This document shows, in pieces, positions 17,680 to 42,310 of a stretch of DNA of 64,000 nt; the first letter of the stretch is position 1; each line of letters opens with the position of its first letter. The notes below the pieces were generated by a model. It saw only the letters and a program-made list of their open reading frames with translations. It did no database searches and had not been told where the DNA came from. Position numbers and translations under genes: made by a program. The stretch is taken from contig JAENYV010000019.1 in assembly GCA_016841605.1 (NCBI GenBank), positions 1 through 64,000 on the forward strand, read 5' to 3'. This stretch comes from Dethiobacter alkaliphilus. Lineage in GTDB: Bacteria > Bacillota > Dethiobacteria > DTU022 > UBA8154.

Positions 17680-17759
17680 AATCGAAAACTGTCTTATCTC
17701 CCAACTGCTGTTTTGGCTGGATGATTAAAAGCAGACCAATTCGGAGGAGGTGTCCTTTT

Positions 17760-19748
17760 GTGCAAGATAATATGGAATCTTTAATACAAGAGGTGCCAAC
17801 CTGTCATCTAAATGAACACGGCAATAAAGTTTTTAGACTTTTTGAAAAGGAAAAGGACCTTGAGGGTATCGTTGTTTTAAACGAAGAAGCAGCGGCGGCA
17901 GGACTGATCATGCGAACGAATTTCTACCAAAAAATAGGCAAGCAATTCGGCAGAGAAATTTACCTGAACCGCCCCTTAGAGCTGGTTATGAACAAAAATA
18001 TTTTGATGGCGGATAAAGAGGCAGGCCTGGCTGAAATCGGCATCTTGGCTATGAATAGAGATCAGGAAAGCCGTTACGATTTTATTCTGGTTTCAGATAA
18101 GGGACGATACGCCGGAGTAGTCAGTATCAGCCTCTTTCTTACCGAGCTTTCCAGGAGAAGAGAAATTGAACGTGAAAGAGAAATATATTTACTGAAAGAG
18201 CAGCAGGAAATCTTGAAAAAAGCCAATGAAGCGGAAATTAAGCACAGAAAAATCATGGAGGAAAAAAACGGCGAACTCAAAGAAAAGAACAACTCTATCA
18301 AGAACTTGCTGGACAATGCCGGGCAGGGGTTTTTGTCCTTTGATAGCAGCTTAGTTGTATACAATGAATACAGCAAAGAATGTCTAAAATTTTTCGGATG
18401 TGATATCGGCGGGAAAAATTTCTTAGACCTGATCCGCGCGCATATAAGCAGCGAATTGCTGGAAACAATTTCTCTTGTATTACAAAAGCTTTTCCCGGCT
18501 AAAAGTCCGCTGGAACAGAAAGTTTACCTCTCTCTTTTACCGGAAGAGATTATCATTAACTCCAGAAATACTACAATTGAATACAAGGTTATTCCTCACC
18601 ATTGCGATCAAACCATGAAAAAAGTCATGCTCATCCTGACCGATATCACAGAGAAAAAAGAACTGGAAATACTGATGGAAGAAGAAAAAAATAACCTGAA
18701 AATGATCTTAAAAGCAGTTTCCGCATATTCGGATCTAAGTTCCGGCATTGAGGCTTTCACACATTATACTTCTCTCAAAGCACGGGAAATACACAACAAC
18801 ACGCAAAAAACAGATGAGCTTCTGTCTGAAATATTTCGAGACATTCATACTTTCAAGGGTGATTTTGGACAACTCTACTTTGCCCATACGGTAAAACAGC
18901 TGCATGAACTGGAAGAACGGATCTCGGCAATGGCCGACCGGATAGAAGAGATATCCGACAAGGAACTGCTGGATTTTCTCTCCGGTGTAGATGCCCTCTC
19001 CATTTTAGAGAAAGATATGCAGGCTGTCAGAGACAAGCTGGGACCTGATTTCTTTGACAAGAGCGAAACGTTCGTCATCAGCAGGGAGAGTATTTTCGAA
19101 CTGGAAACAAAAGTGCAAGAGCTCTTCATGCCCCGGGAACAAGAAGAGCTCTTGCCTCTAATTCGAAAACTGCGTTATACAAATTTTAAAGAGATGCTCA
19201 GACAATACGATCCTTACCTGCAAAATCTGGCCTCCAGGCTGGAGAAAAATCTTGAACCCATGCATATTACAGGACCTGATATCTATGTGGATAAAAGCAC
19301 CTACCAGCAATTTATCAAATCACTTGTCCATGTTTTTCGCAACATTGTGGATCATGGTCTGGAGCAAAGTGACGAACGGCTGGAAGCCGGCAAACCGGTC
19401 GACGGCAAACTGGAATGCTGTCTCGAATTAATTGATGATAAAAAAATATCGCTGGTTATCAGCGACGACGGTCATGGTATAGACCTTGATATCATCAGGA
19501 AAAAAGCTGTGGAGAGAAATATTTACAGCGCCAAAAAGGTAAAAAACCTGACCGAAAAACAGTTGCTTGAGATTGTCTTCCTGGACCGTTTTTCGACCAA
19601 AGATAGCGTCAGCCTCGTTTCCGGTAGAGGGGTCGGACTGGCAGCCGTTAAATCCGAAGTTGTAAAACTAGGCGGCGAAATCAGCGTTAAAACCGCTCCC
19701 GGGAAAGGAACAGAAATAGATATCTTACTCCCTTTGCTTGAGGTTTAA
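17760..19748 (+). CDS. CheA-like histidine kinase with N-terminal CBS-like and PAS domains
   Basis: A 662-aa kinase. Order: a CBS-like sensory region (about 1-130), a strongly charged coiled coil (about 135-185), a PAS domain (about 190-300), an Hpt-like helix bundle with phospho-acceptor His in RDIHTFKGDFG (about 361), and a CheA-type HATPase (FRNIVDHGLEQ, SDDGHGI, GRGVGLAAV). It ends after the ATPase, so the CheW-like P5 domain of true CheA is absent. It starts with GTG behind GGAGGAGGTG. It probably phosphorylates the adjacent CheY, but the way it couples to the neighbouring MCP is unclear. Confidence 0.85.
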   Translation: MQDNMESLIQEVPTCHLNEHGNKVFRLFEKEKDLEGIVVLNEEAAAAGLIMRTNFYQKIGKQFGREIYLNRPLELVMNKNILMADKEAGLAEIGILAMNRDQESRYDFILVSDKGRYAGVVSISLFLTELSRRREIEREREIYLLKEQQEILKKANEAEIKHRKIMEEKNGELKEKNNSIKNLLDNAGQGFLSFDSSLVVYNEYSKECLKFFGCDIGGKNFLDLIRAHISSELLETISLVLQKLFPAKSPLEQKVYLSLLPEEIIINSRNTTIEYKVIPHHCDQTMKKVMLILTDITEKKELEILMEEEKNNLKMILKAVSAYSDLSSGIEAFTHYTSLKAREIHNNTQKTDELLSEIFRDIHTFKGDFGQLYFAHTVKQLHELEERISAMADRIEEISDKELLDFLSGVDALSILEKDMQAVRDKLGPDFFDKSETFVISRESIFELETKVQELFMPREQEELLPLIRKLRYTNFKEMLRQYDPYLQNLASRLEKNLEPMHITGPDIYVDKSTYQQFIKSLVHVFRNIVDHGLEQSDERLEAGKPVDGKLECCLELIDDKKISLVISDDGHGIDLDIIRKKAVERNIYSAKKVKNLTEKQLLEIVFLDRFSTKDSVSLVSGRGVGLAAVKSEVVKLGGEISVKTAPGKGTEIDILLPLLEV

Positions 19749-37133: not shown

Positions 37134-37207
37134 TGGAGCGGGTGATGGGAATCGAACCCACGCGACTGGCTTGGAAGGCCAGGGCTCTGCCATTGAGCTA
37201 CACCCGC
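37134..37207 (-). tRNA. tRNA-Gly (UCC)
   Basis: A full cloverleaf on the minus strand: acceptor GCGGGTG/CACCCGC, D-arm with AGCTCAATGGCAGAGC, anticodon arm CTGGC-CTTCCAA-GCCAG with anticodon TCC, and T-arm GTGGGTTCGATTCCCAT. The 3' CCA is encoded and is followed by a T-run that may serve as terminator. Confidence 0.97.
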
Positions 37208-37345: not shown

Positions 37346-37422
37346 TGGTCGGGGCGACAGGATTCGAACCTGCGACCTCTTGGTCCCAAACCAAGCGCGC
37401 TACCAAGCTGCGCCACGCCCCG
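37346..37422 (-). tRNA. tRNA-Pro (UGG)
   Basis: A 77-nt cloverleaf on the minus strand: acceptor CGGGGCG/CGCCCCG, D-arm GCGCAGCTTGGTAGCGC, anticodon arm CTTGG-TTTGGGA-CCAAG with anticodon TGG, and T-arm GCAGGTTCGAATCCTGT. CCA is encoded. It is 138 nt upstream of tRNA-Gly in the same direction. Confidence 0.97.
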
Positions 37423-37708
37423 TTACTCTATTATTATGATATTACCACATGCTCGGAAGATTTGCAAGACAGCCCCTCTCAAGCTTACAATAAATAATTA
37501 TATCCTCAAATGCGATAAATTAGCATTATTTACCATAATGCACAAATTAGGAGCATTCACCAAATATTATTCATCTAAACAGGAAAAGGTGCTTTTTTTA
37601 TCGAATAAATTTCTTTACATAAATAAAAAATGTGAAGTAATTTGTAGAAATATTAGTTACCCAGAAAACAAAGGCCCGGGAAAACCACAGAAAGGAGGTT
37701 GAGAACCT

Positions 37709-38041
37709 GTGGATGGAATTCAGGTTATTGAAATATATGATGAATTATTTCAAACATCATGGCATAAAATGGTCTCCATTGTCGGTATACATACAGTAAC
37801 GGTTTTAGTCCAGCGGTCGCTCTGGATTACACGGCAAAAATACGCTGAAGCAGAATTAATACGAATTACGGAGGAAGGCCTCTCCTTTACAAATTTGGAG
37901 CAATTCGATGCAGTCCTTGTCAAAAAAATGCTGGAAGATTTTTTTGCGGCACTGATTGAAATAATGATACGCCTTGTTGGAAAAGAGATGACTGAAAAAA
38001 TAACTGAAGGAATTGATATATTTCTGGCAGAAAAGAGGTAA
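37709..38041 (+). CDS. Small unknown protein coupled to the KaiC-like ATPase
   Basis: A 110-aa protein of unknown family: two helical blocks with a hydrophobic central helix (FFAALIEIMIRLVGKEMTEKI) near the C-terminus. It may bind a partner or the membrane. GTG at 37709 follows AAAGGAGGTTGAG. Its stop overlaps the start of the KaiC-like gene by one base (TAATG), so the two products are made together; an adaptor for the ATPase is a reasonable inference. Confidence 0.7.
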   Translation: MDGIQVIEIYDELFQTSWHKMVSIVGIHTVTVLVQRSLWITRQKYAEAELIRITEEGLSFTNLEQFDAVLVKKMLEDFFAALIEIMIRLVGKEMTEKITEGIDIFLAEKR

Positions 38042-39513
38042 TGTTGAATTTGAAACGTATTTCTACTGGTATTTCCGGACTTGATGACATACTGCTTGGA
38101 GGTATTCCTGAATTTGCTAATATTCTCCTGGCTGGAGCACCGGGTTCGGGGAAGACAATTTTAACACAAAATATTTTATTTAACATAAACAAGACAACAG
38201 GCAGGAATGTAGTCTATTTTACAACCCTGACCGAACCTCAAATCAAAGTAATCCGTTACCAGCAGGAGTTCTCTTTCTTTAATGTTGAAACTTTTATGTA
38301 TTCGGTCATTTTCCAGGATATCGGTTACTTAATAAGGACCAAAGGCCTCAGGGAAGGTCTGGCTGCCATCAATGAAATAGTCATGAAGTACAACCCGGCT
38401 GTCGTTGCCATTGACAGCTTTAAAGCCCTGGCAGGCAACCTGCCGTCTCCCGAACATTTCCGGGAATTTCTGACAGAGTTAAGCATCTACCTGCCCATTT
38501 GGGAGTGCACGGTAATTCTTACCGGTGAATACATGGAGGATGAGCTCAAAAAACAACTGGAAGCAGCAGTAGTGGACGGAATTATTTACCTGTATGGTAT
38601 GGAGGAACATAAACATCAGAAGCGCTACCTGCGCATCATGAAAATGCGCGGCACGAATTTTTTCCAGGGTGAGCATATCCTGAAGATCAGTCAGGCAGGC
38701 GTAAACATCTATCCCCGCTGGAAGCCGGGTCTTCCCGGAGAGACCGCTGTCATCGGCATTGAACGGCAAAAGACGGGTACACCGGGCCTGGACGAGATGT
38801 TAGGGGGAGGACTCCCTTCCGCTACAACGACCCTCATCACCGGTTCCACAGGTACGGGTAAAAGCCTGCTGAGTTTAAAATGGTTAATGGAAGGGGCAAA
38901 GGAACAGGAATTGGGAATACTGGTGACCTTTGAACAGCATCCGGAGCAGGTAATACACAATGCACGTCTCTTTAAATGGGATTTGCGCAGACTAATCGAC
39001 CAAAAGCTGCTGGAGATAATACATGTATCCCCGGTGGAGCTGGATCTAGACTATAATATTTATGAAATTCAAAAACTTGTCCGGGAAAGAAAGGCGAAAA
39101 GACTTGTTTTCGATAGTATCTCATCCTTTGAGATCGGCATGTCCGATAAGTACAAGTACACCGACTACCTCTGGGGGATGACGGATTTCTTTAAAACACT
39201 GGGGGTCTCTGTCCTCCTTATTAATGAGACGCCGGGACTTTTTGATATACAGTCCCTTTCCAAACACGGGGTTTCCTATATTGCCGATAACATTATCTTC
39301 TTGCAGCTTATGCAGGATAACTTTAAGCTTAGTCGCTTTCTCGGTGTTTTAAAAGTACGGGGGGCTCTCTGCTCCGGAGAAATAAAAGAACTTGTGCTCG
39401 GTCTACAGGGTCCGGAAATCGGCACAACAGACTGGAACTCCCGCAATTCAAACCCGGCTGCGCCTCCGGATGCCGGTACAAAAAAAGACAGGAGCACTAG
39501 AGAGTATGATTAA
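38041..39513 (+). CDS. KaiC-like double RecA-domain ATPase
   Basis: A 490-aa protein with two KaiC/RecA ATPase domains (about 5-230 and 240-465). Walker A motifs are GAPGSGKTILTQ and GSTGTGKSLLSL; Walker B motifs are VVAIDSFKAL and RLVFDSISSF. Catalytic-Glu regions are TTLTEPQ and VTFEQHPEQ. No kaiA or kaiB is present. KaiC-like proteins outside cyanobacteria act as signalling or stress ATPases, often with histidine kinases. The gene overlaps the kinase gene behind it by 8 nt. Confidence 0.9.
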   Translation: MLNLKRISTGISGLDDILLGGIPEFANILLAGAPGSGKTILTQNILFNINKTTGRNVVYFTTLTEPQIKVIRYQQEFSFFNVETFMYSVIFQDIGYLIRTKGLREGLAAINEIVMKYNPAVVAIDSFKALAGNLPSPEHFREFLTELSIYLPIWECTVILTGEYMEDELKKQLEAAVVDGIIYLYGMEEHKHQKRYLRIMKMRGTNFFQGEHILKISQAGVNIYPRWKPGLPGETAVIGIERQKTGTPGLDEMLGGGLPSATTTLITGSTGTGKSLLSLKWLMEGAKEQELGILVTFEQHPEQVIHNARLFKWDLRRLIDQKLLEIIHVSPVELDLDYNIYEIQKLVRERKAKRLVFDSISSFEIGMSDKYKYTDYLWGMTDFFKTLGVSVLLINETPGLFDIQSLSKHGVSYIADNIIFLQLMQDNFKLSRFLGVLKVRGALCSGEIKELVLGLQGPEIGTTDWNSRNSNPAAPPDAGTKKDRSTREYD

Positions 39514-42310
39514 CACAATTATTACCCCCAGGTGGGATTCCTTTCAAGATTCTCTTGCCAGGATCCTTGATATGTCCATCGGTCTCGTTTCTGCAGCAGG
39601 AAAACTGATTTCTTTATACAACGCTTTACCTCCGCTCTCGGAAATGAAACGCTACCCAAAACTTCATCTGTCTTACCAGGACTTTTTCCGCAAAATTACC
39701 CGCACAGGCAGCAAGAGCGGAAAGCCCGCAATAATCCATGATCCGCTGGGTCTGCCTGTTGCCGTCATCCAACCTGGGGCAAATGTTTTTATTTTTCTTG
39801 TTGGAGGTTTCGACAATAAGCAAGGTACTCCGCAAATTCCGGAAGACTACGGCATACCGCCGGCGGAAGCAGCCGGCATATCCAAGCGAATCGGAAAAGT
39901 CAGTATGGATGAACTTAAGGCCAAAGCAGCAAGCATTACAGCCATTTACCGGCAAATACTCACCTCTTCTTCCGAAAACCGGGAGCTCGGGCAAAAAATG
40001 ATCCTTTTAACCGCGGTGGAGGAGATCAGTAAGCTGACAGTGGGACTCCTTCATCCGAACAAATTTTCTCTCAGGCAGATCCTGGATCTGGTGGTCAACT
40101 CACTGATCATTCTTTCCGATGCGGAAGGGGCATTCATTTTTATCTGCCGGCGTTCTGTTTGTGATTATTTCTATCGAGGACAGCACCAGGATTTCCAACA
40201 AGCTCTGGGGGAAAAGTGGGGAAGTGCTGCATCAGAGGACCCTGCCTTTCTACAAGATTGGAACGGCACCGAAACGGAAACGGACTATGGCTTAAAACTG
40301 CACCTTTCTTCATTTGCCAAAGAGAATCTCCAGGCCTGCCTGGGTATCATCAACCCCCAGTCGGAGAATATTCAGGACACACTGGAAGCATTCACAAGAC
40401 AGGCCAATATTGTTGCGGAGATATCACTGCTCTATGATTTATTACAGGGGCAGATCGGTTTTCTCCTCAATTCTGTCCGCCATGGCATCATCACAGCCAA
40501 CAATGAAGGCAAAGTCATGGTTCTCAACCGAGCCGGACAAAGTATCTTCAGGCCGCTGGGCATTACTTTAACCGTCGGTCAACCATTGGCAGGGCAGGGA
40601 TTGCCTCTCACCATGGAAACAGCAGTAGAGCAAACCATCTCTCAAGGAAAAGCCCATTTTTTACAAGAGGATCTCATTGAAATTAGTAATCAAAGTTATT
40701 GCTTGAGCTGGGATGTTTCACCGTTAAAATGGGAAAATGGCGATACCGCGGGGGCTATTCTTGTTATTGAGGATATAACAGCTCGCCGGCAATCTGAAAA
40801 AGTCTTACTGCAGAGAGAGCAGGAATTTAAAGCGCTAATCGAAAATGTCCCGGATATTATTTCCCGTTTTGACCGGGACCTGCGCTGCGTCTTTCTTAAT
40901 AGCGCTATTGAAAAACAGTACGGTCTGCCTCACCGCCGTTTTCTCCGGAAACAAATTGAAGAGTTGCCCATCCCGGAAGAAACCACTTTGCTTATCAAAC
41001 AAACCCTGCTAGCCGGTTTCTCTAACGGTGAAGAGATAACAATAAACCTTGAATTTGCCGAAAAGCGTCAGTTTCATTATTTTAGCGCCAAATTCGTCCC
41101 TGAATTTGATGAAAACGGCACAGTGAAATCCATCCTGGTCATCATCCGTAATATTACAGAAATTAAGATGATGGAAAATGAATTAATAAAAGCCGGCACA
41201 CTGGATTCCATCAGCATCCTGGCCGGGGGAATCGCTCATGATTTTAACAATTTCCTGGCTACCATGCTGGGCAATATTACCCTGGCTAAGCTCTATAAGA
41301 ATGAAACCGAGAAAATTTATGAAAAAATGGAAAACATAGAAGCAGCCATCTTGCGGGCCAAAGAACTCTCCCAGCAGCTCTTGATCTTTGCCAAAGAATC
41401 GGAGCCCATTAAAAAGGCGATGGACCTCAAGCAACTGCTTATCGAAAGCACTCGTTTTGCGCTCAGCGGTTCCAGTATCTCCCCGGAATTTTCCTTTGCA
41501 GAGGAGATACTGCCGGTAGAAATTGATGAAGGGCAGATTAACCAGGTTATTAATAATCTTGTGATTAATGCCGTGCAGGCGATGCCGTTAGGGGGAAAAA
41601 TAAAGATAGAGGCCCGGAAAACTGCGCTCAAAAATCAGGGGAAAGAGCACTTTTTACCTTTACCGGACGGAGAATATGTTATGTTTTCCATCTCTGATGA
41701 GGGGTTCGGAATTGACTCAGAAGACCTCTCCAAAATTTTCGAGCCTTTTTTCAGCACCAAAGAAAAAGGAAGCGGCCTGGGGCTGGCCACCTCCTATTCG
41801 ATCATTAAAAAGCACCATGGGCATATCGACGTTCAATCAGAAAAGAATGTGGGGACAACTTTTTCCGTTTATCTACCCGCCACAAACGAAACAGAGCTGA
41901 AAAAATCCGAAAAGGAAACCTTTATTAAAGGAAAAGGGAGGGTACTGCTCATGGATGATGAAGAAGCAATTCGTCAGGCTTCCGGGGAGCTGCTCTCTTT
42001 TTTGGGATATGAAGTGGAATTTGCGGAAGACGGCCTGGAAGCAGTAAAGCTATATCGGAAGGCGATGGCAGCAGGACGTCCATTTAACGCTGTTATACTG
42101 GATTTAACCGTTCCCGGGGGTATGGGAGGTATGGCCGCGATCGAAGAGCTTCTTTCCATGGATCCTAATGTTAAAGCTGTTGTTGCCAGCGGCTATGCCA
42201 ATGACCTGGTGCTGGCCAACTACAAGGATTACGGGTTTAAGTCCATTGCCGTAAAACCCTACAAAATCGAGGTTTTATCCCGCATTATGTACGAATTAAC
42301 AGCAACTTGA
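39506..42310 (+). CDS. Hybrid sensor histidine kinase (GAF-PAS-PAS-HisKA-HATPase-REC)
   Basis: A 934-aa soluble hybrid kinase. The first 120 residues may be a PocR-like sensor, then a GAF domain (about 172-310), two PAS domains (311-428 and 435-553), HisKA with phospho-acceptor His in GGIAHDFNNF (about 577), HATPase (NLVINAVQAMP, DEGFGI, GSGLGLATS) and a C-terminal receiver (LLMDDEE, phospho-Asp in ILDLTVPGG near 864, Lys in VKPYK). No DNA-binding output is adjacent. It starts inside the end of the KaiC-like gene with GGAG upstream, so the two are translationally coupled. Confidence 0.92.
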   Translation: MINTIITPRWDSFQDSLARILDMSIGLVSAAGKLISLYNALPPLSEMKRYPKLHLSYQDFFRKITRTGSKSGKPAIIHDPLGLPVAVIQPGANVFIFLVGGFDNKQGTPQIPEDYGIPPAEAAGISKRIGKVSMDELKAKAASITAIYRQILTSSSENRELGQKMILLTAVEEISKLTVGLLHPNKFSLRQILDLVVNSLIILSDAEGAFIFICRRSVCDYFYRGQHQDFQQALGEKWGSAASEDPAFLQDWNGTETETDYGLKLHLSSFAKENLQACLGIINPQSENIQDTLEAFTRQANIVAEISLLYDLLQGQIGFLLNSVRHGIITANNEGKVMVLNRAGQSIFRPLGITLTVGQPLAGQGLPLTMETAVEQTISQGKAHFLQEDLIEISNQSYCLSWDVSPLKWENGDTAGAILVIEDITARRQSEKVLLQREQEFKALIENVPDIISRFDRDLRCVFLNSAIEKQYGLPHRRFLRKQIEELPIPEETTLLIKQTLLAGFSNGEEITINLEFAEKRQFHYFSAKFVPEFDENGTVKSILVIIRNITEIKMMENELIKAGTLDSISILAGGIAHDFNNFLATMLGNITLAKLYKNETEKIYEKMENIEAAILRAKELSQQLLIFAKESEPIKKAMDLKQLLIESTRFALSGSSISPEFSFAEEILPVEIDEGQINQVINNLVINAVQAMPLGGKIKIEARKTALKNQGKEHFLPLPDGEYVMFSISDEGFGIDSEDLSKIFEPFFSTKEKGSGLGLATSYSIIKKHHGHIDVQSEKNVGTTFSVYLPATNETELKKSEKETFIKGKGRVLLMDDEEAIRQASGELLSFLGYEVEFAEDGLEAVKLYRKAMAAGRPFNAVILDLTVPGGMGGMAAIEELLSMDPNVKAVVASGYANDLVLANYKDYGFKSIAVKPYKIEVLSRIMYELTAT

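Follow-up and report, generated by a model that had tools for sequence, protein, structure and literature searches.

A known KaiC system is the cyanobacterial KaiABC clock, which comprises KaiC, KaiB, KaiA, and the kinase SasA. Proteins of the KaiC family are known to form a two-tier ring, and SasA bears a KaiB-like domain. KaiC-like ATPases are also common outside the cyanobacteria, where their roles are largely obscure. Operons combining kaiC with kaiB and a kinase gene are already known, as is the concept of KaiC as a hub: in archaea, the role of signal transduction hubs has been ascribed to KaiC-like ATPases (Makarova et al. 2017, cited in PMC5847659). According to the citing paper, through which this comparison is drawn, such hubs resemble the operon analyzed here in that a KaiC family protein is linked to sensor kinases and receivers, but those described are archaeal.

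The operon is located in a stretch of 64,000 nucleotides of the Dethiobacter alkaliphilus genome, here called the window. It resembles the KaiABC system in that a double-domain KaiC is coupled to a histidine kinase and in that a small partner domain is able to fuse to a kinase. However, neither kaiA nor kaiB adjoins the operon, its small partner is unlike both by profile and has no fold match in the PDB, and its KaiC belongs to a separate clade and lacks the KaiB loop and Thr432. With moderate confidence, we favor the view that the operon encodes a KaiC-based signaling hub in which a helical adaptor would link the state of KaiC to an output enzyme. The genes and the site preceding them are as follows.

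37691 to 37699, plus strand: strong ribosome-binding site of the first gene, AAAGGAGGT, read directly from the sequence
37709 to 38041, plus strand: 110-amino-acid helical small protein with a GTG start, the proposed KaiC adaptor (ORF, conserved family, AlphaFold2)
38041 to 39513, plus strand: 490-amino-acid double-domain KaiC-like ATPase (PF06745 twice; closest solved structures are KaiC)
39506 to 42310, plus strand: 934-amino-acid hybrid sensor histidine kinase (Pfam, motifs)

The first and second genes overlap by 1 nt (TAATG at 38041) and the second and third by 8 nt (39506 to 39513); these overlaps, as well as the three ORFs and their lengths, agree with those given in an earlier note on this DNA. 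The third gene is counted from an internal ATG. A longer version with a TTG start is mechanically possible, and the N terminus conserved among the relatives of this gene starts near the ATG. Genes for tRNA-Gly(tcc) and tRNA-Pro(tgg) lie immediately upstream on the minus strand (37134 to 37207 and 37346 to 37422), and since the gene downstream is also on the opposite strand, the operon is self-contained. Promoter and terminator scans gave nothing clearly above shuffled sequences.

The single small protein sequence had no credible match in Pfam or NCBIfam, and scans of 37 diverse members of its family against Pfam, NCBIfam, and PADLOC also gave no credible match. In the AlphaFold2 model, which was of good confidence (pLDDT 85.6, pTM 0.78), a beta hairpin separates a pair of long helices from a second pair of helices, and a Foldseek comparison of this model with the PDB returned no match with an E value of <1 (best, 2.3). 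Similarity to KaiA and to KaiB was considered and rejected, the hhalign probabilities being 0.4% for the KaiA C-terminal domain and 0.6% for KaiB. When 100 relatives were searched with the single sequence, strong matches were found in eight other genomes and marginal ones in two. A profile search with the small protein as the sole query, and hence unbiased as to KaiC, covered 398 genomes of the phylum; 19 of them had matches, 20 in all, and 18 of these immediately preceded a KaiC gene. The two exceptions were an 87-amino-acid remnant and an extra copy with transposase debris behind it. Chance neighborhood of the genes was rejected on the basis of conservation across many genomes. The search for the gene triplet proposed in the earlier note was thus run, and the triplet proved to be conserved, which disposes of the objection that these genes do not stay together.

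We also collected 80 KaiC loci by scanning one genome per species with a KaiC alignment. They contained 40 small-domain ORFs, of which 37 directly precede KaiC, two directly follow it, and one is fused to it; because the query was KaiC, the set is biased toward KaiC loci and is not an unbiased census. Judging from record names, the family occurs in about ten phyla, including Bacillota, Chloroflexota, Cyanobacteriota, Deinococcota, Myxococcota, Bdellovibrionota, Gemmatimonadota, and Pseudomonadota, and also in a Heimdallarchaeota bin and two candidate phyla, but single phylum placements may reflect contamination because many records are metagenome-assembled genomes (MAGs). Several relatives of the module are likewise MAGs or lie at contig ends. 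At other KaiC loci, a receiver or MerR-receiver gene occupies the upstream place of the small protein. These REC-KaiC and MerR-REC-KaiC pairs, found in Actinomycetota, Chloroflexota, and others, resemble the window operon in that a related double-domain KaiC is immediately preceded by a small regulatory gene, but the partner there is a receiver and not a helical protein.

Two natural fusions were identified in one Bacteriovorax MAG. The small domain forms the N terminus of a 676-amino-acid KaiC (L113), and it is likewise N-terminal in a GAF-HisKA-HATPase kinase encoded by another gene of that MAG (L164). Fusion of one domain to each of two otherwise adjacent proteins is a classical sign of physical linkage, and these fusions therefore point to physical coupling between KaiC and kinases. 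The earlier note had deduced a stoichiometric complex from the gene overlaps, which by themselves are a weak basis for it; the two fusions and the near-obligate adjacency nevertheless make it likely that the small protein, KaiC, and the kinase associate physically.

The second protein contains two PF06745 domains (267 bits), in line with the double-domain KaiC-like ATPase of the earlier note, and both Walker A motifs are present; its nearest solved structures are those of KaiC. The following residues and motifs were located by alignment.

38134 to 38157, plus strand: Walker A motif of the first KaiC domain, GAPGSGKT, residues 32 to 39
38233 to 38235, plus strand: lone catalytic-type glutamate of the first domain, E65, in LTE (canonical, FEE)
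38842 to 38865, plus strand: Walker A motif of the second KaiC domain, GSTGTGKS, residues 268 to 275
38905 to 38913, plus strand: FEQ, residues 289 to 291, in place of the canonical CII EE pair
39274 to 39276, plus strand: Ser412, aligned with the cyanobacterial KaiC phosphosite Ser431; the Thr432 position is Tyr

Most catalytic features are retained in the kinase as well as in the two ATPase domains. Among the KaiCs linked to a small gene, a single glutamate of the FEE pair remains in the first domain of all 37 sequences, whereas the second domain mostly has both; in the window KaiC, the second domain reads FEQ, so hydrolysis there could be weakened. The residue at the Ser431 position is Ser in 29 of these 37 KaiCs, Glu in 7, and Asp in 1, and Thr432 is gone except beside Glu. 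The Glu, resembling a built-in phosphomimetic, is found in a clade formed by L113, L116, L124, L126, L127, L141, and L144. The window KaiC has a 7-residue gap at the KaiB-binding loop of its first domain, and this loop is seven residues shorter in the six small-linked members inspected.

In a KaiC tree of 81 rows constructed by a quick method, linkage to the small gene required 4 changes, compared with a mean of 26.9 when shuffled, and the window KaiC clustered with relatives having the small gene. In one near relative (L075), located at a contig start, the 275 nt preceding KaiC contain no small gene. Two cyanobacterial clock KaiCs formed a separate clade (support, 100) together with a second KaiC of the host genome, encoded on contig C8.

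The third protein was predicted by Pfam to contain two PAS domains, a HATPase domain, and a receiver; HisKA was below the cutoff, with an intact H box. The protein has the H, N, G1, F, and G2 boxes as well as the receiver Asp and Lys, as in a hybrid histidine kinase. The hybrid kinase of the earlier note is confirmed, but a PocR-like sensory domain at the N terminus had been overlooked. The domains are arranged as follows.

39506 to 39985, plus strand: PocR-like N-terminal sensory domain, approximately residues 1 to 160 (homology to PocR of GGDEF-type third genes)
40073 to 40465, plus strand: GAF-like domain, approximately residues 190 to 320 (AlphaFold2 and Foldseek, tandem PAS/GAF proteins; modest confidence)
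40463 to 40780, plus strand: PAS domain 1, weak (Pfam PAS_10)
40841 to 41161, plus strand: PAS domain 2, residues 446 to 552 (PF08448)
41186 to 42307, plus strand: kinase-plus-receiver output cassette, with the phospho-acceptor His578 at 41237 to 41239 (genome comparison, motifs)
41525 to 41884, plus strand: HATPase_c domain (PF02518)
41942 to 42280, plus strand: receiver domain, with the phospho-acceptor Asp866 at 42101 to 42103 (PF00072, motifs)

PF10114 (PocR) is matched by homologous third genes and not directly by the window protein, residues 4 to 211 of which align with the PocR N terminus of the GGDEF-type third genes (25% identity; E value, 7e-9). The AlphaFold2 model of residues 1 to 320 was modest (pLDDT 70.9) and loosely fits a PAS/GAF-type tandem.

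The third genes of the family keep a homologous PocR-like/GAF N terminus, and their outputs vary among histidine kinase, hybrid histidine kinase, and GGDEF. In the closer relatives of the window (L034 and L030), the third gene encodes a kinase and the receiver is in a separate gene; in the Moorella/Desulfofundulus-type clade, it encodes PocR-GAF-GGDEF, and RsbRST, SpoIIE-type, GGDEF-EAL, or HD genes are often close by. At L061, L063, L068, L073, and L035, the KaiC module adjoins an RsbRST stressosome, SpoIIE-type phosphatase, GGDEF-EAL, or GAF-HD genes. Such neighborhoods recall the RsbRST stressosome with GGDEF or SpoIIE-type output; however, no STAS, RsbT, or PP2C gene adjoins the window operon.

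Residues 1 to 425 of the window kinase showed 35 to 36% identity to the L034 and L030 kinases. Residues 561 to 934, however, shared 52 to 55% identity with hybrid kinases encoded at three other places in the host genome (C2, 60436 to 61545; C13, 266861 to 267967; C8, 163974 to 165065) and only 27 to 30% with the sister-operon kinases, so that the output half has probably been replaced by a resident cassette. The earlier note had seen neither this replacement nor the diguanylate cyclase in the third genes of relatives. Sharing of the cassette among hybrid kinases suggests that it has spread within the genome.

One of the three cassette-sharing kinases belongs to a kaiC-kaiB-kaiB-hybrid-kinase operon on contig C8 (163956 to 169226; L009, 1957 to 7227), the KaiC of which is the one clustering with the cyanobacterial clock proteins. 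This operon had also been missed, although the earlier statement that kaiA and kaiB are absent is correct for the surroundings of the window operon; in the host genome, kaiB lies only next to the C8 kaiC. Both operons of the host include a KaiC and a hybrid kinase, the latter with output cassettes that are 52% identical, but the C8 operon has two KaiB proteins in place of the helical protein and the two KaiCs are only distantly related. As their outputs are near-paralogous, cross talk between the two KaiC systems is conceivable.

In the mechanism that we propose, the KaiC-like ATPase probably assembles, by analogy with the family, into a ring of two tiers, the conformation of which would be set by nucleotide and perhaps also by phosphorylation of Ser412. 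The proposed 110-amino-acid adaptor is predicted to bind KaiC and to bridge it and the N-terminal half of the third protein, where the sensory domains lie. The state of KaiC would then modulate the output enzyme; here this is the hybrid histidine kinase, whose own receiver would take up the phosphate. Relatives encode the same putative adaptor-KaiC pair together with either a diguanylate cyclase or a kinase whose receiver is separate. Given its association with KaiC across about ten phyla and its occasional fusions, the small protein is probably an adaptor of general use through which KaiC is connected to signaling enzymes. Gene order and fusions give no direction, and we infer that the signal flows from KaiC to the kinase, so that the gating of the kinase by the ATPase put forward in the earlier note is plausible.

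The reverse flow, in which the sensor kinase or cyclase would be the input that alters KaiC via the small protein and KaiC would act on a further target, is rather unlikely. It would fit the location of the sensory domains on the third protein and the replacement of the small protein by a receiver in other phyla, as if KaiC were the target of a phosphorelay, but a pure input would have no need of the complete outputs that the third protein itself has (receiver, GGDEF). The small protein might instead serve only in the assembly or stability of KaiC, the third gene being cotranscribed without direct contact between the products. Consistent with this, small protein and KaiC are kept together in cyanobacterial and some Bdellovibrionota loci while the third gene is not the same. 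In Acaryochloris and Moorena (L094, L095, L098, and L100), the pair is followed by a gene of ~730 codons which, where checked (L094 and L095), encodes a triple-domain KaiC and no kinase, so the third partner is not fixed; the L094 and L095 genomes additionally carry a normal kaiA-kaiC clock. However, the direct fusion of the small domain to a GAF histidine kinase and the conservation of the N terminus of the third gene through output swaps both speak against a mere stability factor, which we consider improbable.

Least probable of all, and very doubtful, is a timer in which the small protein replaces KaiA and KaiB and drives a phosphorylation cycle of KaiC that times the kinase; timing of the kinase by the ATPase was one of the options in the earlier note. 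A single site at Ser431 has been reported to be sufficient for a circadian period (PMC11832031), and this position is Ser or acidic in all of the small-linked KaiCs. The window KaiC, however, is outside the circadian clade, scored 177.8 bits against the NCBIfam circadian KaiC model (cutoff, 546.25), and has a shortened KaiB loop and only half of the Ser/Thr pair; furthermore, the small protein is unrelated by profile to KaiA or KaiB, neither of which is linked to the operon, and the host, an anaerobe-type member of the Bacillota, presumably has no obvious daily cue. On the tree, the motifs, the model score, and the absence of KaiB, we rejected the clock reading of the window operon, for which the clade, the missing KaiB-binding loop, and the missing phosphosite leave no support.

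Returning to the hub reading, we see an even chance that the small protein represents a third class of dedicated KaiC partner beside KaiA and KaiB, that is, a widespread, undescribed helical adaptor that would couple, in bacteria and in one archaeon or more, non-clock KaiC rings to interchangeable outputs (histidine kinases, diguanylate cyclases, and perhaps stressosomes). Neither the helical partner family nor a module of adaptor, KaiC, and swappable output was found in the literature searched; the main archaeal KaiC paper was outside its scope, and priority therefore cannot be firmly claimed. A small partner that is almost exclusively found beside KaiC, fused to KaiC or a kinase, and upstream of swappable kinase or c-di-GMP outputs offers a testable handle on the roles of KaiC outside the cyanobacteria. 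It also indicates a way in which signaling might make use of a KaiC ring without KaiA or KaiB, which bears on the evolutionary assembly of the clock.

Four Hpt matches were identified in the host genome, one of which is weak and lies in the window at 18801 to 18986, within a 675-amino-acid ORF (17721 to 19748) that follows a CheY-like gene.
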